Source: Victivallales bacterium (GTDB taxonomy: Bacteria > Verrucomicrobiota > Lentisphaeria > Oligosphaerales > Oligosphaeraceae). Taken from it: 64,000 nt of DNA. The notes under the pieces were generated by a model. It did not search any database and was not told the DNA's origin. It saw only the letters and a list, made by a program, of their open reading frames with translations. Both the position numbers and the translations under genes were made by a program. Of this stretch, positions 29,734 to 64,000 are shown piece by piece; the stretch's first letter is position 1; each line of letters begins with the position of its first letter. The DNA is taken from contig JAFXUD010000039.1 of the NCBI GenBank assembly GCA_017535315.1, positions 1 to 64,000 on the forward strand, written 5' to 3'.

Positions 29734-29750
29734 TTGGCATAGATATTGCA
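29734..29750 (+). promoter_or_regulatory. Sigma-54 promoter of dnaK
   Basis: TTGGCATAGATATTGCA matches the -24/-12 consensus (YTGGCACGN4TTGCW), with GG at 29736-29737 and GC at 29748-29749 separated by exactly 10 bp. Predicted transcription start is about 29761, giving a leader of about 45 nt before dnaK. No CIRCE (TTAGCACTC-N9-GAGTGCTAA) occurs here or before groES. Confidence 0.65.
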
Positions 29751-55273: not shown

Positions 55274-55365
55274 GGGGGAAAATTATATAATTGAGTTACC
55301 GAGCAGTAATTGTCTGGTAGACAAACTCTTGAACATCTAGAACATCAAGTATATTTAGGAAATCA

Positions 55366-55561
55366 GTAACTATTCAGAAGGGTAAGCCGCGTTAGCGGCG
55401 ACAAGAACATAGCCGTGGGTGAAGCGAGCGCCTTTGGCGCGAGCGAAACCCACGGGACAAGCAATCCCCCCGATTACCTCTCGCCTTGCCGCGTAGCGTA
55501 GCGAAGCGGCAAGGCGCAGAAAAAGAGCCAGCCGATACCAATCCCCCTTCTGAATAGTTAC
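55366..55561. mobile_element. MITE-like element, family A, copy 1
   Basis: The 196-bp element has perfect 17-bp inverted ends, GTAACTATTCAGAAGGG (55366-55382) and the complement (55545-55561). Flanking 8-mers GGAAATCA (55358-55365) and GGAAACCA (55562-55569) match at 7 of 8 and may be an old target duplication. The interior forms hairpins GCCGCGTTAGCGGC, CCGTGGGT...ACCCACGG around GCGCC/GGCGC, and GCCTTGCCGC...GCGGCAAGGC. There is no open frame of note. Confidence 0.75.
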
Positions 55562-55612
55562 GGAAACCAAATATGATACTTCCTTTTTGTATAGTGTATA
55601 CCAAGGGGAATA

Positions 55613-56140
55613 TCAAGCCGTGACGGGGCCGTCTCCGCAGAATTTTCTTCGTCCGCACTTAACGCAGCAGGCTCCGCGCCAGACAGAATCGAACTGCTCG
55701 CAGAGCGGTTCCACCAAAGACGGCTCGTCGGTCAGGATGCCGTTCTCGAAGTTGCGGCGGCTGTCGCTCTTCGCGCCCAGTCCCGCGCCCGTCAGATTGG
55801 CGCTGCCGAAGTAGGCCTTTGTCCCGTCAGCGATGATGCACTTGAAGTGGACGCGCGGGCAGAGTACCCGCTCCATCTGCGTCCAAAGGCGAGGATAGCG
55901 GTCAAAATCCTGTCGGAAGTTGGGGCCTGGCTCCTTGGCGTGGATAAGGCGGATATCGACCCCTCGCGCCAGCAGTTGATCAAGCACGCCCAGAAAGGGA
56001 ATCATCTCCCTTTCTCCAGGCATGGCAACGTACATGTCCTTGATGTCGGCGGTGGCAATCCAGAGCCGTTTTTTCGTATGTGGGACGAGTCCGCAGATGA
56101 CTTTGTCATAGATTTCGTGATTTGTAATAAACAGATTCAT
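55613..56140 (-). CDS. Single-HKD phospholipase D-type nuclease
   Basis: The 175-residue protein carries one HKD motif, HFKCIIADGTKAYFGSANLT (about 98-117), followed by G. The fold resembles the Nuc/PLD-like endonucleases that act as homodimers, each chain giving one HKD. The N-terminal half (LWIATADIKDMYV) is the usual PLD strand-helix. No signal peptide is present, so it works inside the cell, perhaps on nucleic acid. A family A repeat lies on each side, in the same orientation. The C terminus has CCVKC..RKFC cysteines, possibly a metal site. Confidence 0.8.
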   Translation of the reverse strand: MNLFITNHEIYDKVICGLVPHTKKRLWIATADIKDMYVAMPGEREMIPFLGVLDQLLARGVDIRLIHAKEPGPNFRQDFDRYPRLWTQMERVLCPRVHFKCIIADGTKAYFGSANLTGAGLGAKSDSRRNFENGILTDEPSLVEPLCEQFDSVWRGACCVKCGRRKFCGDGPVTA

Positions 56141-56199: not shown

Positions 56200-56335
56200 A
56201 GCCGCGTAAGCGGCTGCAAGAGCATAGCCGTGGGTGGAGCGAAGCCGCGACAGCGGCGAAGCGAAACCCACGGTCAGATGCCCACCCCAGTCTCCGTGCG
56301 CCTTGCCGCTTAGCGCAGCGACGCGGCAAGGCGCA
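56200..56335. mobile_element. Family A element core, copy 2
   Basis: The 136-bp core matches the interior of copy 1: AGCCGCG(T)AAGCGGC, AGCATAGCCGTGGGTG, GCGAAACCCACGG, CGCCTTGCCGC and GCGGCAAGGCGCA appear in the same order and orientation. The 17-bp terminal repeats are not recognisable here. Together with copy 1 it brackets the PLD gene as direct repeats about 0.8 kb apart. Confidence 0.65.
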
Positions 56336-56589
56336 TCCTGTCTATCGACCAGTGATGAATAATGTCATCAGGAAACTCAAGGATATTATTCCCATTTCTT
56401 GTGCCTCCACTAATGGCAAAGCAAATCACATGCCAATGACTGGCAGCCTTGATTCGAGCAGAATGGTTTTGCCATGATTGTCCTGTCCTGCTCATAAAAT
56501 AATCATAGTGGTTAATTAATGCAACTAGTCATTGTGCAAAATAACAATTCATGTCATATATTACACAGCAATCGGTCAAAAAATGATTT

Positions 56590-56606
56590 TTGGCATTTTG
56601 TTTGCA
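56590..56606 (+). promoter_or_regulatory. Sigma-54 promoter of the exonuclease-activator operon
   Basis: TTGGCATTTTGTTTGCA has GG at 56592-56593 and GC at 56604-56605, separated by exactly 10 bp. The predicted start, about 56616, coincides with a family C end (AGAGGTAATTTCAAAAC, from 56615). Since the second gene encodes a sigma-54 activator, autoregulation is likely. The TGCGACA motif found before dnaK is not present upstream. Confidence 0.65.
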
Positions 56607-56660: not shown

Positions 56661-57194
56661 ATGAAACTGGCTGGACTTGATTTTGAGACGGCGAACGGAA
56701 AGAGCGGGAGCATCTGCGCGGCGGGCTGCGCCATTCTTGACGATGGCGTATTGACGGAGAGCCGCGAGTGGCTCATCTGTCCCCACAAGGGCTACCGCTG
56801 GATGCGGCCCGATTTCACGGAGATACACGGGCTTTCCTACTGGGATGTCTGCAACTGCGCCGAATTCGCCTGCATCTGGCCCGAGCTGCAACGGATGCTT
56901 CTTTCCGTCGACTGCGTCATCATCCACAACGCCCCGTTTGACTTGGGACACCTGCGGAGCGTTCTGGAATTGTATGAGCTGCCTCCAGTTGAGTTTGACT
57001 ATGCCGACAGCGTCGTCATCTCCCGCAGGCTCTTTCCCGAAATGCCCTCCCATTCGCTGGATGCCATGGCGGAACGCTTCGGCATCGTTTTCCACCATCA
57101 CGATGCATTGGAGGACGCTATGGCCTGCGCCTCCATCATCGCCCGTACAGGCATCCCAGAAGGATACATACGTCATTTTTCAACAGGAGACTGA
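56661..57194 (+). CDS. DEDDh 3'-5' exonuclease (DnaQ-like)
   Basis: The 177-residue protein has all acidic motifs of the DEDDh group: LDFET at 5-9 (Exo I), HNAPFDLGHL near 95 (Exo II), and HDALEDAMA near 148 (Exo III, HxxxxD). It is a stand-alone domain like the DnaQ epsilon or oligoribonuclease type, without the polymerase-binding tail. I chose ATG 56661 (AAGGA upstream) over an upstream ATG that lies 5' of the sigma-54 promoter. Its stop lies 1 bp before the activator gene. Substrate (DNA or short RNA) is open. Confidence 0.88.
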   Translation: MKLAGLDFETANGKSGSICAAGCAILDDGVLTESREWLICPHKGYRWMRPDFTEIHGLSYWDVCNCAEFACIWPELQRMLLSVDCVIIHNAPFDLGHLRSVLELYELPPVEFDYADSVVISRRLFPEMPSHSLDAMAERFGIVFHHHDALEDAMACASIIARTGIPEGYIRHFSTGD

Positions 57195-57195
57195 T

Positions 57196-58668
<1,473 letters not shown>

Positions 58669-58684: not shown

Positions 58685-58798
58685 AATTAACGCCTAATGG
58701 GACAGGAACGACGGGAGCGACGGGAGCGACAGAGCAAAGTCACTAACACAATTGGGCTGTCCCTCCCGTCCCTCATGTCTCTCCCGTCCCTTTTAAGT
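58685..58798. repeat. Inverted 9-bp repeat array, unit 1
   Basis: The 114-bp unit begins AATTAACGCCTAATGGGAC and ends CTCCCGTCCCTTTTAAGT. Its left arm is AACGACGGG/AGCGACGGG-type 9-mers and its right arm the complementary GTCNCTCNN 9-mers, giving a hairpin of up to 35 bp. It is near-identical at both ends to the unit at 58839-58953 and related to 1-290. Confidence 0.75.
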
Positions 58799-58838
58799 CA
58801 GGAGTATTAGCTTGTTCACCGTCGCTACCCCCGTCAGT

Positions 58839-58953
58839 AATTAACGCCTAATGGGACAGGAGAGACAGGAGGGACGGGAGCGACAAAAACAAAAGACCTA
58901 TTGTCATTTCGCTATCCCTCCCGTCCTGCCTGTCTCTCCCGTCCCTTTTAAGT
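58839..58953. repeat. Inverted 9-bp repeat array, unit 2
   Basis: The second unit of 115 bp has the same AATTAACGCCTAATGGGACAG left end and GTCTCTCCCGTCCCTTTTAAGT-type right end. A different loop (AAAAACAAAAGACCTATTG) lies between the arms. It ends 35 bp before the DUF234 fragment. Confidence 0.75.
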
Positions 58954-58987: not shown

Positions 58988-59314
58988 ATGTTCGATGAAC
59001 TTCGGAAGCTGATTCTGCGGGACTACGAGGTCTTTTCGGGCATCGCCCTTGAAAGGTATTTTCATGCAAAGTTCATTGAGGAGCATTCCTACTCGCATCT
59101 GGGTGGATGGTGGGATCGCAAGGGGGATAATGAGATTGATTTAATCGGTGAGAACGAGTTCAAGGGGACACTGGATTTCTTCGAGATCAAACGTGATTCC
59201 AGGCGAATTGATCTTAATGTTCTGCAACGCAAGGCATCTGCGTTTTTCAATCAGAACCCTGACCTTCAGTCAAGGACTTTGACCTTCTCAGGGCTCTCCC
59301 TGCAGGACATGTAG
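58988..59314 (+). pseudogene. C-terminal fragment of a DUF234-type ATPase
   Basis: These 108 codons match only the C-terminal nuclease-like part of DUF234/AAA ATPases. They contain LRDYEVFSGIALERYFHAKF, then GGWWDRKGDNEIDLI and FFEIKRDSRRIDL, a PD-(D/E)XK-like E..D..E.K arrangement. The family is normally about 450-480 residues with an N-terminal AAA domain, and that part is missing. In-frame stops lie just upstream at the edge of the 9-bp repeat unit. It is probably a remnant, although a short expressed nuclease-like domain cannot be excluded. Confidence 0.7.
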
Positions 59315-59337: not shown

Positions 59338-59778
59338 CTAGCGTAGCTGCGGTTTGTCGTCGCCGTGGATTTTTTGTTCAAGGGGCAGGAGCAGGGGCTT
59401 GCAGCGTTCCGCAAGGTCAGGGGCGAATGTTTCGATGAACTCCTTAAGGCGCGCCAAGTCGTCTTCGGAAGACGCCAGTGCTACTGCCTTGCGGAAGCAG
59501 CGTTCAGCAAGTCCCACAGTGCCAAAGTACTTTAGATGCGCCGTGGCAAGATACAGAAACATGTAGCAGTCACAGGCTCGGCACTCCGCCTCCAACAGAC
59601 AGCGGACGGCATTGTCGTGGTCATGAAGGTCATGCTCCCATCCACGCGCACACAAGATCAGGTGCTCTGGCACAACTTGCGACGCATGGCTTTCCGCCTC
59701 GCGTAGCAACTCCCTGGCTTTGTCGGGATTGTTCTGTGCCAACTCGGTGGCTTTTACAAACAACTCAGAGTATCTCAT
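59338..59778 (-). CDS. TPR-like helical protein
   Basis: This 146-residue all-helical protein has pairs of helices resembling tetratricopeptide repeats: AQNNPDKARELLREAESHAS, DHDNAVRCLLEAE, and GTVGLAERCFRKAVALAS near 93-110. It overlaps the upstream ankyrin gene by 14 bp, so it is the last gene of the AAA-MoxR-VWA operon. A scaffold or interaction role is likely. Confidence 0.7.
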   Translation of the reverse strand: MRYSELFVKATELAQNNPDKARELLREAESHASQVVPEHLILCARGWEHDLHDHDNAVRCLLEAECRACDCYMFLYLATAHLKYFGTVGLAERCFRKAVALASSEDDLARLKEFIETFAPDLAERCKPLLLPLEQKIHGDDKPQLR

Positions 59779-60805
59779 AGGCTTCTTTGCATAGATTGTA
59801 ACTCAGGTTCAAATGGTTGCGGGCGTCGGGATCGCAGCCATACTTTATCAGCGCCTCCTCCAGTTCTTCCCTTCCGCATCTGTACAGGCAATACCAGAGG
59901 GGCGTGTTGCCCAGCTTGTCCTTGGTCTTGCTGATGCCAGGGTACAGTTGCTCAAGGGTGTCAAGCACTTTGATTCCTCGCCCATCTGCGCATGAGCAAC
60001 AGCAGATAAGCCAATCCTGGGGTGCAAGAATGGCTGTCATTGCCTTGGTGCGGTGACGCAGCAAATGGGAAATGATATTGTAGGCTCTATAATGCATTAT
60101 TTCACGCAACAGTGATGCCGTCAGTTTCTTTCCAGTGAGAGTTAATTCAAGTTCGAATAGTGAAATTGAATCTTCCGCCATTGCTTGTTCCATTTTTTTA
60201 GACAGCTCATAGTGCCTTTTGGCATCCATGAATACAAGTCCAGGTGGAATCAAGTCGTGCACAGCATGCTTATACTTGAACATGGCAAGTTTGATGTCGG
60301 AATTGTCAATCATGACAATATCTACGCAATCATCTGGAACACATCCACAATAGCACCAGGTGATTTTCCGCATCAAAGTCCAGAAGAATGCTCGAATAAT
60401 GTCTGGCAGCACATTTTTCATCGAGAGTATTCTGGCGATAGCATTGAATGCACGATGATAGAATTCATGATGGCGGGAGTGCATCAAGTATTCACCGATT
60501 CTCTTCAAAAGGGGCATATCATCCTCTTGCAAGTGCTTCAGAAACGAAGGCATTAGCACCATATCGCCCCATTTGTTGCTTTTTTGCAAGATGTCTTCTA
60601 TTGGAATGAACGTTTTCTCCAATGTCTCATTGGATTCTTCTTGTGCAGGTTGCCGCTTATAAACAATCTCTGTATAAAGATGTTGGCTACAAAAATCGAT
60701 TATCTGTCGTATGGGGGCATCTTTTTCCCAAAGCTCCTCGTATTCCTGAACAAGTTTGGTGAATTGTTTGGTGTATTGTGTGTTATAATCTAATTCATCC
60801 ATCAT
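59765..60805 (-). CDS. Ankyrin-repeat-containing protein of the MoxR-VWA operon
   Basis: A 346-residue soluble protein. The C terminus has an ankyrin-like repeat (DKLGNTPLWYCLYRCGREEL, about 295-314, then EEALIKYGCDPDARN). The N-terminal 250 residues are helical, with no recognised domain. Its ATG shares one base with the VWA gene stop (TGATG), and GGGAG lies upstream. Codon composition is more AT-rich than the MoxR and VWA genes, which may mean a separate origin. Function unknown; a partner of the VWA protein is likely. Confidence 0.7.
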   Translation of the reverse strand: MMDELDYNTQYTKQFTKLVQEYEELWEKDAPIRQIIDFCSQHLYTEIVYKRQPAQEESNETLEKTFIPIEDILQKSNKWGDMVLMPSFLKHLQEDDMPLLKRIGEYLMHSRHHEFYHRAFNAIARILSMKNVLPDIIRAFFWTLMRKITWCYCGCVPDDCVDIVMIDNSDIKLAMFKYKHAVHDLIPPGLVFMDAKRHYELSKKMEQAMAEDSISLFELELTLTGKKLTASLLREIMHYRAYNIISHLLRHRTKAMTAILAPQDWLICCCSCADGRGIKVLDTLEQLYPGISKTKDKLGNTPLWYCLYRCGREELEEALIKYGCDPDARNHLNLSYNLCKEAYEIL

Positions 60806-62355
60806 CAACTCTCCCTGCTATGTTTCAATTTAATGCAGCGTCCCCAAGTGGCGGGGGTGCGTCCGTCCTGCGTCAGCACCCACAGCACAGGATAGCGCGG
60901 TTTTGTTTCAGGAGCATCGCCAAAGCCATCCGTCAGGTAGATGAATATCTCTGGCTTCAGGCGATGTTCGCGGACATAATTGAATGGCGGAACGAAGGAG
61001 GTGCCGCCGTGCCCGTAGCTCTCCCACTGGTAATTTCGCGGAAAGTGCTTGATTTCGCTGAAGGTCTCCACATGCTGGATGGTGCAGTCGCACTGGATGA
61101 CGGTCAAGTCGTATTTGCCGAAGGAGTTGAGCAGACTGGAGAGCTCCGCGAAGAATTGGGGCAAATCGCCCGTGGTGCTGCCGCTGGTGTCGATTGCCAT
61201 GACCGCGTTCATCCGATTGTCGCGATAGGAGGGCAGATAGAGCTTCCTTGAAACATGTCTGCGTTCTGGAGGCAGCCAGCGACGCGAGCCGCCATAGCAG
61301 CTTGTGACGAACTGCCGAAGCAATTCCCGCCATGGCAGTTCAGGCTTGCGAAGCTTTTCCACAATGCCTTGTATATGCGCTGGCAGATGCCCCTGCGTGC
61401 GCTCTATGACCTGCGCCGTCTGTATGATAATGCGGCGCATCCATTCCACCGACTGCGCATCCCAGGCAGGCGTTTCTGAAATGCTGGATTCTCCTGTCGT
61501 GCTGTCGCCATCCGCATTTTCGCCATTGTCAGAACTCGCAGCTTCGCTGGAACGGTTTCCTGAATTGCCACTGCTTTTGTTTCCATTTTGTTCATCACTG
61601 TCATTTTGCGAATCCGAACCTGCTCCGCCTTTTCCAGTCGCGGGTGTATTCTCTTCCTCGCCTTCGGATGACTTGTTGCCCCCTTTTCCCTCTTCGTTGC
61701 CTCCTTTTCTTTTTCCCTCTTTAGTGTCCTCAAGAGGTTTCTCGCCACACCCTGAAAAGATGTGCTCGTCAAAGCCTTCGCCGTTTTCCTGCCCTTTGAT
61801 GTGCTCCGATTGTTTTCCTGGAGCCTTGAAATTGCCATTGTCATCAGGGAACCCTCCGCCTTTGCTTGAAGGAAAAATGCCACCGTTATGGGGAGCCAAA
61901 ACTGCATTCTTGGATTTCCGCTGTGATTTATGCCCCAGTTTTTCGTAGATTTCCTCTGCGGAAAGGCCATCCCAGTCAGGATCGTGGGATAGGACGAAGG
62001 GCTCCTTCATCTTCTCTTTCTGGAGAATAAAATGAATCTCCAGGTCTGCGGCGATATTGAACAGATGCTGATTGCGTGTCTGGTAGCGCACGCCGTGCAT
62101 CAGAACGCAGTGCCACGCCTCATGCGCCATGACGAAAAGCCGCTCCTCCAAATCCAGCTTAGCATAGAAAGATATGCTCATCATGATGCGCCGTCCGTCT
62201 GTGCAGGCGGTTCGCAATCTGTTTCCAGGCATGGGGACCAGTTCCAGATTCATGAGAATCAAACCGATGAATGGCTGCCTTGTCAGTAGCTTCTGCCTGT
62301 CCTGCTCCATGCTCTTCAGGACAGCCGCCGCCTTTTGCTCGAATGTCTTTTCCAT
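60805..62355 (-). CDS. DUF2201-type metallopeptidase/VWA protein
   Basis: The 516-residue protein has an N-terminal metallopeptidase-like domain with HEAWH (HExxH, about 77-81) and a following HG. A long low-complexity acidic linker rich in Gly, Glu, Ser and Asn (about 150-295) leads to a C-terminal VWA domain with the MIDAS motif DTSGST (about 386-391) and later YLTDGFGD. DUF2201 proteins regularly accompany MoxR AAA ATPases. ATG 62355 is preferred (AAGGGG upstream) over a GTG eight codons earlier. Confidence 0.85.
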   Translation of the reverse strand: MEKTFEQKAAAVLKSMEQDRQKLLTRQPFIGLILMNLELVPMPGNRLRTACTDGRRIMMSISFYAKLDLEERLFVMAHEAWHCVLMHGVRYQTRNQHLFNIAADLEIHFILQKEKMKEPFVLSHDPDWDGLSAEEIYEKLGHKSQRKSKNAVLAPHNGGIFPSSKGGGFPDDNGNFKAPGKQSEHIKGQENGEGFDEHIFSGCGEKPLEDTKEGKRKGGNEEGKGGNKSSEGEEENTPATGKGGAGSDSQNDSDEQNGNKSSGNSGNRSSEAASSDNGENADGDSTTGESSISETPAWDAQSVEWMRRIIIQTAQVIERTQGHLPAHIQGIVEKLRKPELPWRELLRQFVTSCYGGSRRWLPPERRHVSRKLYLPSYRDNRMNAVMAIDTSGSTTGDLPQFFAELSSLLNSFGKYDLTVIQCDCTIQHVETFSEIKHFPRNYQWESYGHGGTSFVPPFNYVREHRLKPEIFIYLTDGFGDAPETKPRYPVLWVLTQDGRTPATWGRCIKLKHSRES

Positions 62356-62360
62356 ATATG

Positions 62361-63506
62361 CTAGAACCCCTTTTTGCACATACGGGCCCGCATCGCCTTG
62401 CCATGCTTCTCCGCCCAGGCGGTATACCCCTTGTGGTTATACAGTTTGTCGGCAAACACACTTGGGTCGTCGGTCTTGCGGTTTCCCGTGAGGGCGTCTA
62501 TCATCAGCATCGTGGCGAAATCGCTGGGCAGAGCCATGGCAATACGGTAGAAGCCAGACAGCAGTTGCTCCTCCTCTTCAGGCGACTTGCCGCGCCAGAG
62601 GTGATACGCCACTGCCGCGCAGAAGGCATAGCGCTGGTCGGGCTTTTCAGGAATGTGAATCTTCTTGCTCGGATTGGTCATCAGCTCGTGCGTATCGTCA
62701 AATTGAGTGGCTATCTCCTTGAACGCAAGAAACTCGACTCCAGCCTGGTTGCCGACGAGCCCGTAGAGCATTTTGTCCAGCAGATACGGCTTGTCTGCGA
62801 TGCGAAAACGGTGGAGCATCGTGCTGACGCGCTCCCACGAGCGGGGCGTGGGCCAGCCGCGCTCCAGATTCTCGTTCTCCTGGTGGAACAGCAAATCTGG
62901 GCGGAAGCGGATGAAGCCGATGACAGCGGGATGGATGCCGTTCTGAAGCCCCCAGCGCACCCATTCCTCTGGCGACTCCTGCAATTCCACGTGCATAAAG
63001 CGGTTGGCAAGTGCGGAACTCATGGTGGTGGCGACCGCCATGTCCTCCTCGCGGTTGCCTGCGGCCACGATGTACCAGCCATCAGGTAAGTGGTATAGGT
63101 CTCCCAAACGCCTGTCCAGGATGATTTCGTAGGCGGCAACTTGCAGGGAGCGGTCCGCCGCCGTCAGTTCGTCGAACAGCAGGATGCCGCGGCTATTGGC
63201 ATCCCGCGGCCAGTCGGAGGAAATGAGCCAGCTGACGGAATCCTCGTTGGGCACTGGCAGTCCACGGATATCCACAGGTTCCCGCTGTGCCAGCCGTATG
63301 TCAATGAAGCCGATGCCAGCCTCCTTTGCCACATTGCGCAGAATTGTGGATTTTCCCATGCCTGGCCCGCCCCATACCATCAGCGGTGGCAGCGCCGATG
63401 ACAGTTCTGGATTTTCGGCGATGATTTCCACGTTGTTGCGCACAATCGCCTCCAGATCCTCTGGCGTAATTTTGTTGCGCATGTCAAGAATTTCAGATGT
63501 GTCCAT
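62361..63506 (-). CDS. MoxR-family AAA ATPase
   Basis: This 381-residue MoxR/RavA-type AAA+ ATPase has Walker A GGPGMGKS (about 46-53), the REPVDIRGLPVP motif typical of MoxR partners of VWA proteins, and Walker B ILLFDELTAAD (about 104-114). Sensor 1 AAGNREED and sensor region ALANRFMHVEL follow. ATG 63506 is preferred because GGAG lies 10 bp upstream; ATG 63515 is possible. MoxR ATPases act as chaperones that remodel complexes containing the VWA protein. Confidence 0.92.
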   Translation of the reverse strand: MDTSEILDMRNKITPEDLEAIVRNNVEIIAENPELSSALPPLMVWGGPGMGKSTILRNVAKEAGIGFIDIRLAQREPVDIRGLPVPNEDSVSWLISSDWPRDANSRGILLFDELTAADRSLQVAAYEIILDRRLGDLYHLPDGWYIVAAGNREEDMAVATTMSSALANRFMHVELQESPEEWVRWGLQNGIHPAVIGFIRFRPDLLFHQENENLERGWPTPRSWERVSTMLHRFRIADKPYLLDKMLYGLVGNQAGVEFLAFKEIATQFDDTHELMTNPSKKIHIPEKPDQRYAFCAAVAYHLWRGKSPEEEEQLLSGFYRIAMALPSDFATMLMIDALTGNRKTDDPSVFADKLYNHKGYTAWAEKHGKAMRARMCKKGF

Positions 63507-63532
63507 TGTTGTCATTCTCCAATTTTACAGTT

Positions 63533-64000
63533 TCAGCAGAATCCCAATTTCCCGCGCACAGCAAAGGCACCACCCTCCTTGGCGGCAGCTTCCCGCTCCA
63601 GGGCGTCCAGGCGCTGGCCGTTGGTGATTTCACCGCCATAGTAGAAGAGGCTCTGGCGGACGGTGCGGAAGTCGCCTGGCGCGAGGTTGGGGATTGCCTT
63701 CAGGCGTTCCAGTTCACTGTCCGACAGCGTACACTTGAACATCCGCTCGAAGAAGAGCCGCTTGCCGTTGTCGTCCAGGAAGTTGAACTGCAACTTGAAT
63801 GTGAAGCGGCGCATGACGGCCTGGTCGAGGTTCTGGATGAAGTTGGTAGCGCCGATCATCACGCCGTCGAAGTTCTCCATCTGGTGGAGCAGTTCGTTGA
63901 CCTGCGTCACCTCCCAGGAGCGCTGCGCGTTGGTGCGGCTCTGGACAAGGCCGTCGAGTTCATCCAGGAAGAGAATGGAGTGCTCCGCCTCGGCTTCACG
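63533..64000 (-). CDS. AAA ATPase, C-terminal part (gene runs off window)
   Basis: Only the 3' end (156 codons) is present, and the frame stays open to the window edge. The visible portion holds Walker B SILFLDELDGLVQSR, sensor 1 GVMIGATNFIQN, and the arginine-finger region DQAVMRRFTFKLQF, then a helical lid (LDDNGKRLFFERMF). It is a classical AAA protein and not a second MoxR. It lies 26 bp upstream of the MoxR start and is probably in the same operon. The N-terminal domain lies outside the window. Confidence 0.85.
   Translation of the reverse strand, partial: REAEAEHSILFLDELDGLVQSRTNAQRSWEVTQVNELLHQMENFDGVMIGATNFIQNLDQAVMRRFTFKLQFNFLDDNGKRLFFERMFKCTLSDSELERLKAIPNLAPGDFRTVRQSLFYYGGEITNGQRLDALEREAAAKEGGAFAVRGKLGFC

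Follow-up and report, generated by a model that had tools for sequence, protein, structure and literature searches.

Gene content and promoters of the locus

The window analysed here comprises the first 64 kb (64,000 nucleotides) of a 100-kb contig (JAFXUD010000039.1) from the 4.9-Mb draft genome of a Victivallales bacterium, and its end cuts an operon headed by the gene of a two-ring Cdc48/VCP-like AAA ATPase, here called AAA2. Contig coordinates continue the numbering of the window, positions above 64000 lying beyond it, and genes were called mechanically. A first-pass annotation had described a five-gene AAA/MoxR/metallopeptidase-VWA/ankyrin/TPR operon, and all five open reading frames were indeed found on the minus strand, overlapping or separated by short gaps, in one operon: AAA2 (728 aa; contig 63533-65719, of which 63533-64000, or the last 155 aa, fall in the window), a MoxR-type AAA+ ATPase (384 aa; 62361-63515), a DUF2201 protein with an N-terminal HExxH metallopeptidase domain and a C-terminal VWA domain bearing a MIDAS motif (516 aa; 60805-62355), an ankyrin-fold protein (346 aa; 59765-60805) and a small TPR-like protein (146 aa; 59338-59778). 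Downstream of the operon lie two units divergent from each other, the gene of a PLD-family nuclease-like protein with a Cys-rich C-terminus (175 aa; 55613-56140, minus strand; PLDc_2, 5e-14) and, on the plus strand, that of a DEDDh (DnaQ-type) exonuclease (177 aa; 56661-57194), one base ahead of the gene of an RtcR-like sigma-54 enhancer-binding protein (490 aa; 57196-58668), whose residues 1-205 are predicted to form a degenerate DHH-fold sensor. Extending the sequence past 64000, as had been advised, yielded the complete start of AAA2, two more promoter boxes and, on the far side of AAA2 and divergent from it, the plus-strand genes of the repeat protein u401 (contig 65982-67088) and a soluble FtsK motor (contig 67085-68716). 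The module exceeds the five genes of the operon, with about ten genes including the sigma-54 regulator, DnaQ, PLD, u401 and FtsK.

These genes form four units (PLD; DnaQ-regulator; AAA2-MoxR-metallopeptidase/VWA-ankyrin-TPR; u401-FtsK), each faced by a strong sigma-54 box within one of the module's two divergent gaps. Nine such boxes were found on both strands of 99 kb of contig, against 0-1 in base shuffles, and four of the nine are those of the module: TGGCATGTGATTTGCT (56420-56435, minus strand) upstream of PLD, TGGCATTTTGTTTGCA (56591-56606, plus strand) upstream of DnaQ-regulator and, beyond the window, contig 65773-65788 (minus strand) before AAA2 and contig 65934-65949 (plus strand) before u401-FtsK. 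The start codons of AAA2 and DnaQ lie about 54 bp beyond the ends of their boxes and that of u401 about 32 bp; for PLD the spacing is about 280 bp, with a repeat fragment between box and ATG. With -24/-12 boxes before its units, an enhancer-binding protein and rpoN in the genome, the locus has the parts of a sigma-54 regulon. Across loci, a strong box was present in 14 of 73 AAA2 upstream regions versus 15 of 645 other genes (p ~1e-7), most of these 15 genes belonging to the same module gene set, and at least one box occurred within about 1.5 kb in 18 of 29 separately fetched regulator loci. A search for a shared enhancer motif for the regulator turned up a single convincing inverted repeat, AATGAC-N7-GTCATT between AAA2 and u401, which did not recur in other loci. 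Elsewhere in the window, a strong box at 29735-29750 lies 48 bp upstream of dnaK (29783), and a dnaK near AAA2-ClpP in another locus (L126) likewise has a sigma-54 box; DnaK may be under sigma-54 control in these bacteria.

AAA2, its regulator and its partners in related genomes

The first gene of the operon had been assigned to the classical AAA ATPases, and the family assignment holds (AAA, 5e-39), but the complete protein carries an N-terminal domain and two AAA domains, with both Walker A and B sites intact, as they are in its homologues. The nearest solved structures by profile are VAT, a VCP-like ATPase and the best PDB match, and Cdc48; the score against the Cdc48/VCP model TIGR01243 was 77.4 bits, the cut-off being 802.65 bits, so that the likeness is one of working type only. 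VAT/Cdc48 and the Cpa unfoldases are likewise two-ring VCP-like AAA proteins that work with a barrel protease (PMC6017811); they serve the proteasome, whereas AAA2 has a ClpP-type tripeptide and clpP neighbours. Its C-terminus reads ...GKLGFC, in which LGF matches the published ClpP docking tripeptide (L/I/V)-G-(F/L) (PMC8745299), as would be expected by sequence of a ClpP-partner ATPase. The pattern [ILVM]-G-[FL], which allows M as first residue, occurs in the last 22 residues of 76 of the 82 AAA2 homologues with complete ends, and the motif lies within the last five residues of 63 of 84 homologues versus 4 of 832 other proteins. The G and F/L are nearly invariant and the 14 residues ahead of them vary freely; because the homologues share ancestry, it is this contrast between fixed motif and variable linker that constitutes the evidence. 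A clpP gene adjoins AAA2 in nine loci; all nine encoded proteins retain the Ser and His regions, some being canonical in appearance and three (L035, L109, L126) divergent. The genome of the window encodes a single ClpP, adjoining a ClpX with LGF where the docking loop is expected, so that this ClpP would have to be the partner of AAA2. We infer from these sequence features that AAA2 docks ClpP through its tail. The usual partners of ClpP are ClpX, ClpA or ClpC-type rings, and a classical two-ring AAA protein with a free C-terminal IGF tail would provide a further route to ClpP.

In the regulator, only the AAA and helix-turn-helix part is RtcR/PspF-like and matched by RtcR_PspF2, and its score against NF038308 was 267.1 of 650 bits. 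The RNA-repair regulator RtcR (PMC7790460, PMC9650030) shares the sigma-54 AAA+ and helix-turn-helix parts but has an N-terminal CARF domain, whereas the sensor of the window has a DHH-type fold and no rtcBA genes stand alongside. Beside AAA2 the N-domain occurs in two forms, an RtcR CARF-like one, seen by inspection in six loci (L075, L082, L084, L091, L065 and L133), and a different domain, present in the window locus and seven others. The six CARF-like loci belong to Kiritimatiellae and relatives, and some also have ClpP, a helicase and a phosphatase. Profile comparison of the sensor alignment with the PDB yielded nothing beyond weak DnaA matches; the fold search was informative, the model (pLDDT 88) matching DHH phosphoesterases, with PAP phosphatase (6e-5) followed by RecJ (3e-3). 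The alignment, on inspection, lacks the DHH catalytic motif and shows S..RRLPE, G and W.S conserved, and loss of the catalytic motif with other residues kept fits a ligand-binding, non-catalytic sensor role. RtcR senses tRNA fragments (PMC7790460), and RtcR-like non-rtc regulators have been noted beside restriction systems (PMC4012209). The regulator N-domain and AAA2 occur in the same genome in 34 of 388 phylum genomes (7.4 expected), and sensor and AAA2 lie within about 10 kb on one contig in 16 genomes. If AAA2 uses its tail to reach ClpP, RtcR-type nucleic-acid sensing would be joined to regulated protein degradation.

A genome scan provided 80 loci, many on short contigs, mostly from Lentisphaeria, Kiritimatiellae and Verrucomicrobia, many of gut or rumen origin, together with Planctomycetota, Fibrobacteres, Spirochaetes and Bacteriovoracaceae. 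MoxR-VWA had been regarded as the core of the operon; the pair is present, but across these loci AAA2 is the hub, with MoxR-VWA alongside in a minority, and MoxR-VWA-ankyrin is a frequent add-on to it. Recurrent neighbours of AAA2 are the regulator (14 loci), a WYL-type regulator (12 loci, called by inspection and two Pfam WYL matches), ClpP (9) and a calcineurin-type phosphatase (7), and in addition DnaQ (L056, L079, L103, L107, L108), PLD (L036, L067, L070), GmrSD, u401, FtsK and ankyrin proteins. Locus L036, which comes from a different family of the same class, has AAA2-MoxR-VWA, three ankyrin genes and TPR in this order, plus homologues of u401, PLD and FtsK.

Among the add-on proteins, MoxR is weak in Pfam (AAA_3, 0.002) and matched nearly full-length in PHROGs (phrog_1297, 1e-85), with 57-97% identity among close-type relatives. 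The proposed combination of HExxH and MIDAS motifs in a DUF2201 protein was confirmed by its Pfam domains (DUF2201_N, 5e-37; DUF2201, 4e-22), which place it in the DUF2201 metallopeptidase-VWA family, and by 20 homologues that keep these residues down to 26% identity. The ankyrin assignment, also proposed earlier, depends on a weak match to one repeat (Ank, 7e-5) and a moderate AlphaFold model (pLDDT 72) in which part of the chain resembles DARPins, at weak E-values (0.03-0.1); other loci have one to three copies. The TPR matches stay below the Pfam cut-off, and the L036 operon has a homologue that is 40% identical. Median identity between loci is 60% for MoxR, 51% for VWA, 46% for AAA2 and 28% for the ankyrin protein, whose identity was below that of MoxR in 36 of 36 locus pairs; the fastest-diverging component, it evolves as might be expected of a variable recognition part. 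A literature search for DUF2201 together with MoxR gave no match, and if the module works as proposed below, AAA2 loci would reveal bacterial partners of this widespread, uncharacterised pair.

The gene set is part of the accessory rather than the core genome and has moved horizontally. Core-genome conservation, which had been named in advance as the pattern that would contradict the first-pass proposal, was looked for and not found: VWA is present in 19 of 99 relatives and AAA2 in 61 of 388 phylum genomes, and such patchiness speaks against core housekeeping. In genome G020, of a different genus, the MoxR-VWA DNA is 93.7% identical from the MoxR start onwards and the upstream genes differ; set against 74% identity for dnaK of another genome of that genus, this makes recent cross-genus transfer likely, and contamination of a metagenome-assembled genome (MAG) could be another source of the similarity. 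An empty-site search with the left flank matched only a dispersed repeat, and a viral origin of AAA2 was dismissed, the gene being found in one viral contig only. In G020 (L045, contig C273, 1618-4761) the cassette is preceded by the genes of an LRR-like protein and of an AAA_21/AbiEii-like ATPase in place of AAA2, and a homologue of this ATPase lies between AAA2 and MoxR in L036. Gyrase-B-like proteins and long 'LLxxQPQFAxKCDW'-unit repeat proteins were also seen near AAA2 (L036, 565-3181; L115, 5984-7366; L064, 1606-4073).

A proposed inducible unfolding-proteolysis module and its alternatives

We propose, with a probability of about one in two, that the locus is a mobile, inducible unfolding-proteolysis module answering nucleic-acid damage or infection, whose adaptor and nuclease parts are exchangeable. 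Such damage or infection would give rise to a nucleotide-like ligand; the degenerate DHH domain of the RtcR-like regulator would sense it, and the regulator would then switch on the four sigma-54 promoters. AAA2 hexamers would unfold selected proteins and pass them to ClpP, docking via the C-terminal (I/L)GF tail; the ankyrin, TPR-like and u401 proteins, all fast-evolving repeat proteins, may be substrate selectors or adaptors, MoxR and the metallopeptidase-VWA protein may add a remodelling or peptidase stage, and PLD, DnaQ and FtsK would act on nucleic acid. Rather more tentatively, a Cdc48/VCP-like AAA protein docking ClpP by an IGF tail, within a mobile sigma-54 regulon that responds to nucleic-acid damage through DHH or CARF sensors and has swappable, fast-evolving adaptors, could represent a targeted-degradation immune or damage response; we found no description in the literature of a nucleic-acid-sensing regulator, an unfoldase and a ClpP docking tag in combination. 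Several points weigh against the proposal. Most AAA2 loci, including that of the window, have no clpP alongside, the tail could bind something other than ClpP, and, being inherited, it does not make each homologue a separate piece of evidence. Some 280 bp separate the PLD box from its gene, the boxes were scored with a simple weighting set by hand from the known consensus, and MAG contigs may be chimeric.

The alternative that survives best, though we consider it unlikely, is a dedicated MoxR-vWA anti-phage conflict system, in which the ankyrin protein senses the invader, AAA2 and MoxR set the threshold and the metallopeptidase, with PLD and DnaQ, is the effector, possibly a cell-killing one. 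The fast evolution of the ankyrin protein and the patchy, horizontally moved distribution agree with it, as do the 12 loci with WYL-type regulators and the GmrSD restriction enzymes near some loci. MoxR-vWA with a classical AAA protein is moreover a described conflict-system plan: the FtsH-type ternary systems, accessory operons found also in planctomycetes (PMC7159879), likewise have MoxR, vWA and a third protein that carries two AAA domains of the classical kind, and here too a MoxR-vWA pair adjoins a classical AAA gene. However, their N-terminal AAA domain is dead, without P-loop and Walker B, whereas both sites of AAA2 are intact; their MoxR is often GXXXTAKS and their vWA degenerate, whereas the window has GGPGMGKST and intact MIDAS and HExxH motifs; and we saw no caspase, EAD or ubiquitin-like parts here; AAA2 has a ClpP-type tail. 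The anti-phage IetAS (IteA) system also links an AAA ATPase to a protease, but AAA2 scored 120.6 bits against NF042959 (equivalog cut-off 510) and there is no subtilisin gene in the unit. The linkage to defence genes that the first-pass annotation had suggested surveying did not emerge clearly: PADLOC families were similarly represented, with no clear excess, among 127 genes within 4 kb of AAA2 and 127 farther genes, although GmrSD and ClpP do recur close to AAA2. PADLOC models gave only generic AAA, SspH/FtsK, DnaQ and sigma-54-activator similarities for module genes, with no match for VWA, TPR or u401 and a chance-level one for the ankyrin protein. There is no obvious toxin, and CARF/DHH-sigma-54 control fits repair as well. 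To call it an uncharacterised machine for quality control or defence, as the first-pass annotation did, sums it up fairly; the defence half drew no support from this comparison, and defence is only one possible purpose.

It is improbable that the locus merely juxtaposes a stress module of AAA2 and the regulator with an unrelated, separate module of MoxR, metallopeptidase-VWA and ankyrin genes downstream. Most AAA2 loci do lack MoxR-VWA, three loci (L037, L042, L044) have MoxR-VWA-ankyrin without AAA2 in reach, and the nearly identical G020 pair stands behind different genes; against this, of the 10 genomes that have this type of VWA, 9 carry AAA2, compared with 61 of 388 overall, the genes adjoin one another in several independent loci (L035, L036, L046, L116 and the window), and L036 repeats the whole operon order together with PLD, FtsK and u401. 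Very improbable indeed is a captured phage chaperone pair for particle assembly: 471 phage records contain relatives of the VWA protein, and the MoxR and DUF2201 families are those of the jumbo-phage pair proposed for virion assembly (PMC7824862) and of N4 gp24/gp25, gp25 (vWFA) being a core phage gene (PMC4193335), but these pairs occur in a virion context and lack AAA2, the ankyrin protein and sigma-54 control. We noticed no genes for phage structural proteins near the loci, AAA2 turned up in a single viral contig, and the best-ranked relatives in phages reach just 24-33% identity. Such relatives (H1-H30) of the metallopeptidase-VWA protein often carry the annotation 'HNH endonuclease', which looks wrong.

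Repeats around the module

The module had been placed in a repeat-rich island with nucleases, and much of that appearance is due to a genome-wide element resembling miniature inverted-repeat transposable elements, with small local repeats in addition. The element is about 200 bp long with terminal inverted repeats of about 20 bp, lies at 55363-55564 and 56200-56335 in the window and at contig 71329-71483, and is present in two dozen copies or more in this genome, with many further copies in genomes of the same genus. A dispersed 30-nt direct repeat (AGAGGTAATTTCAAAAC...) has five copies (48111, 50924, 50962, 51198 and 56615), one of them in the DnaQ leader. Between the regulator and the operon end lie short GGGACGG-type repeats, some direct and some inverted (58685-58953), and a DUF234/DUF4143-like fragment (58988-59314).

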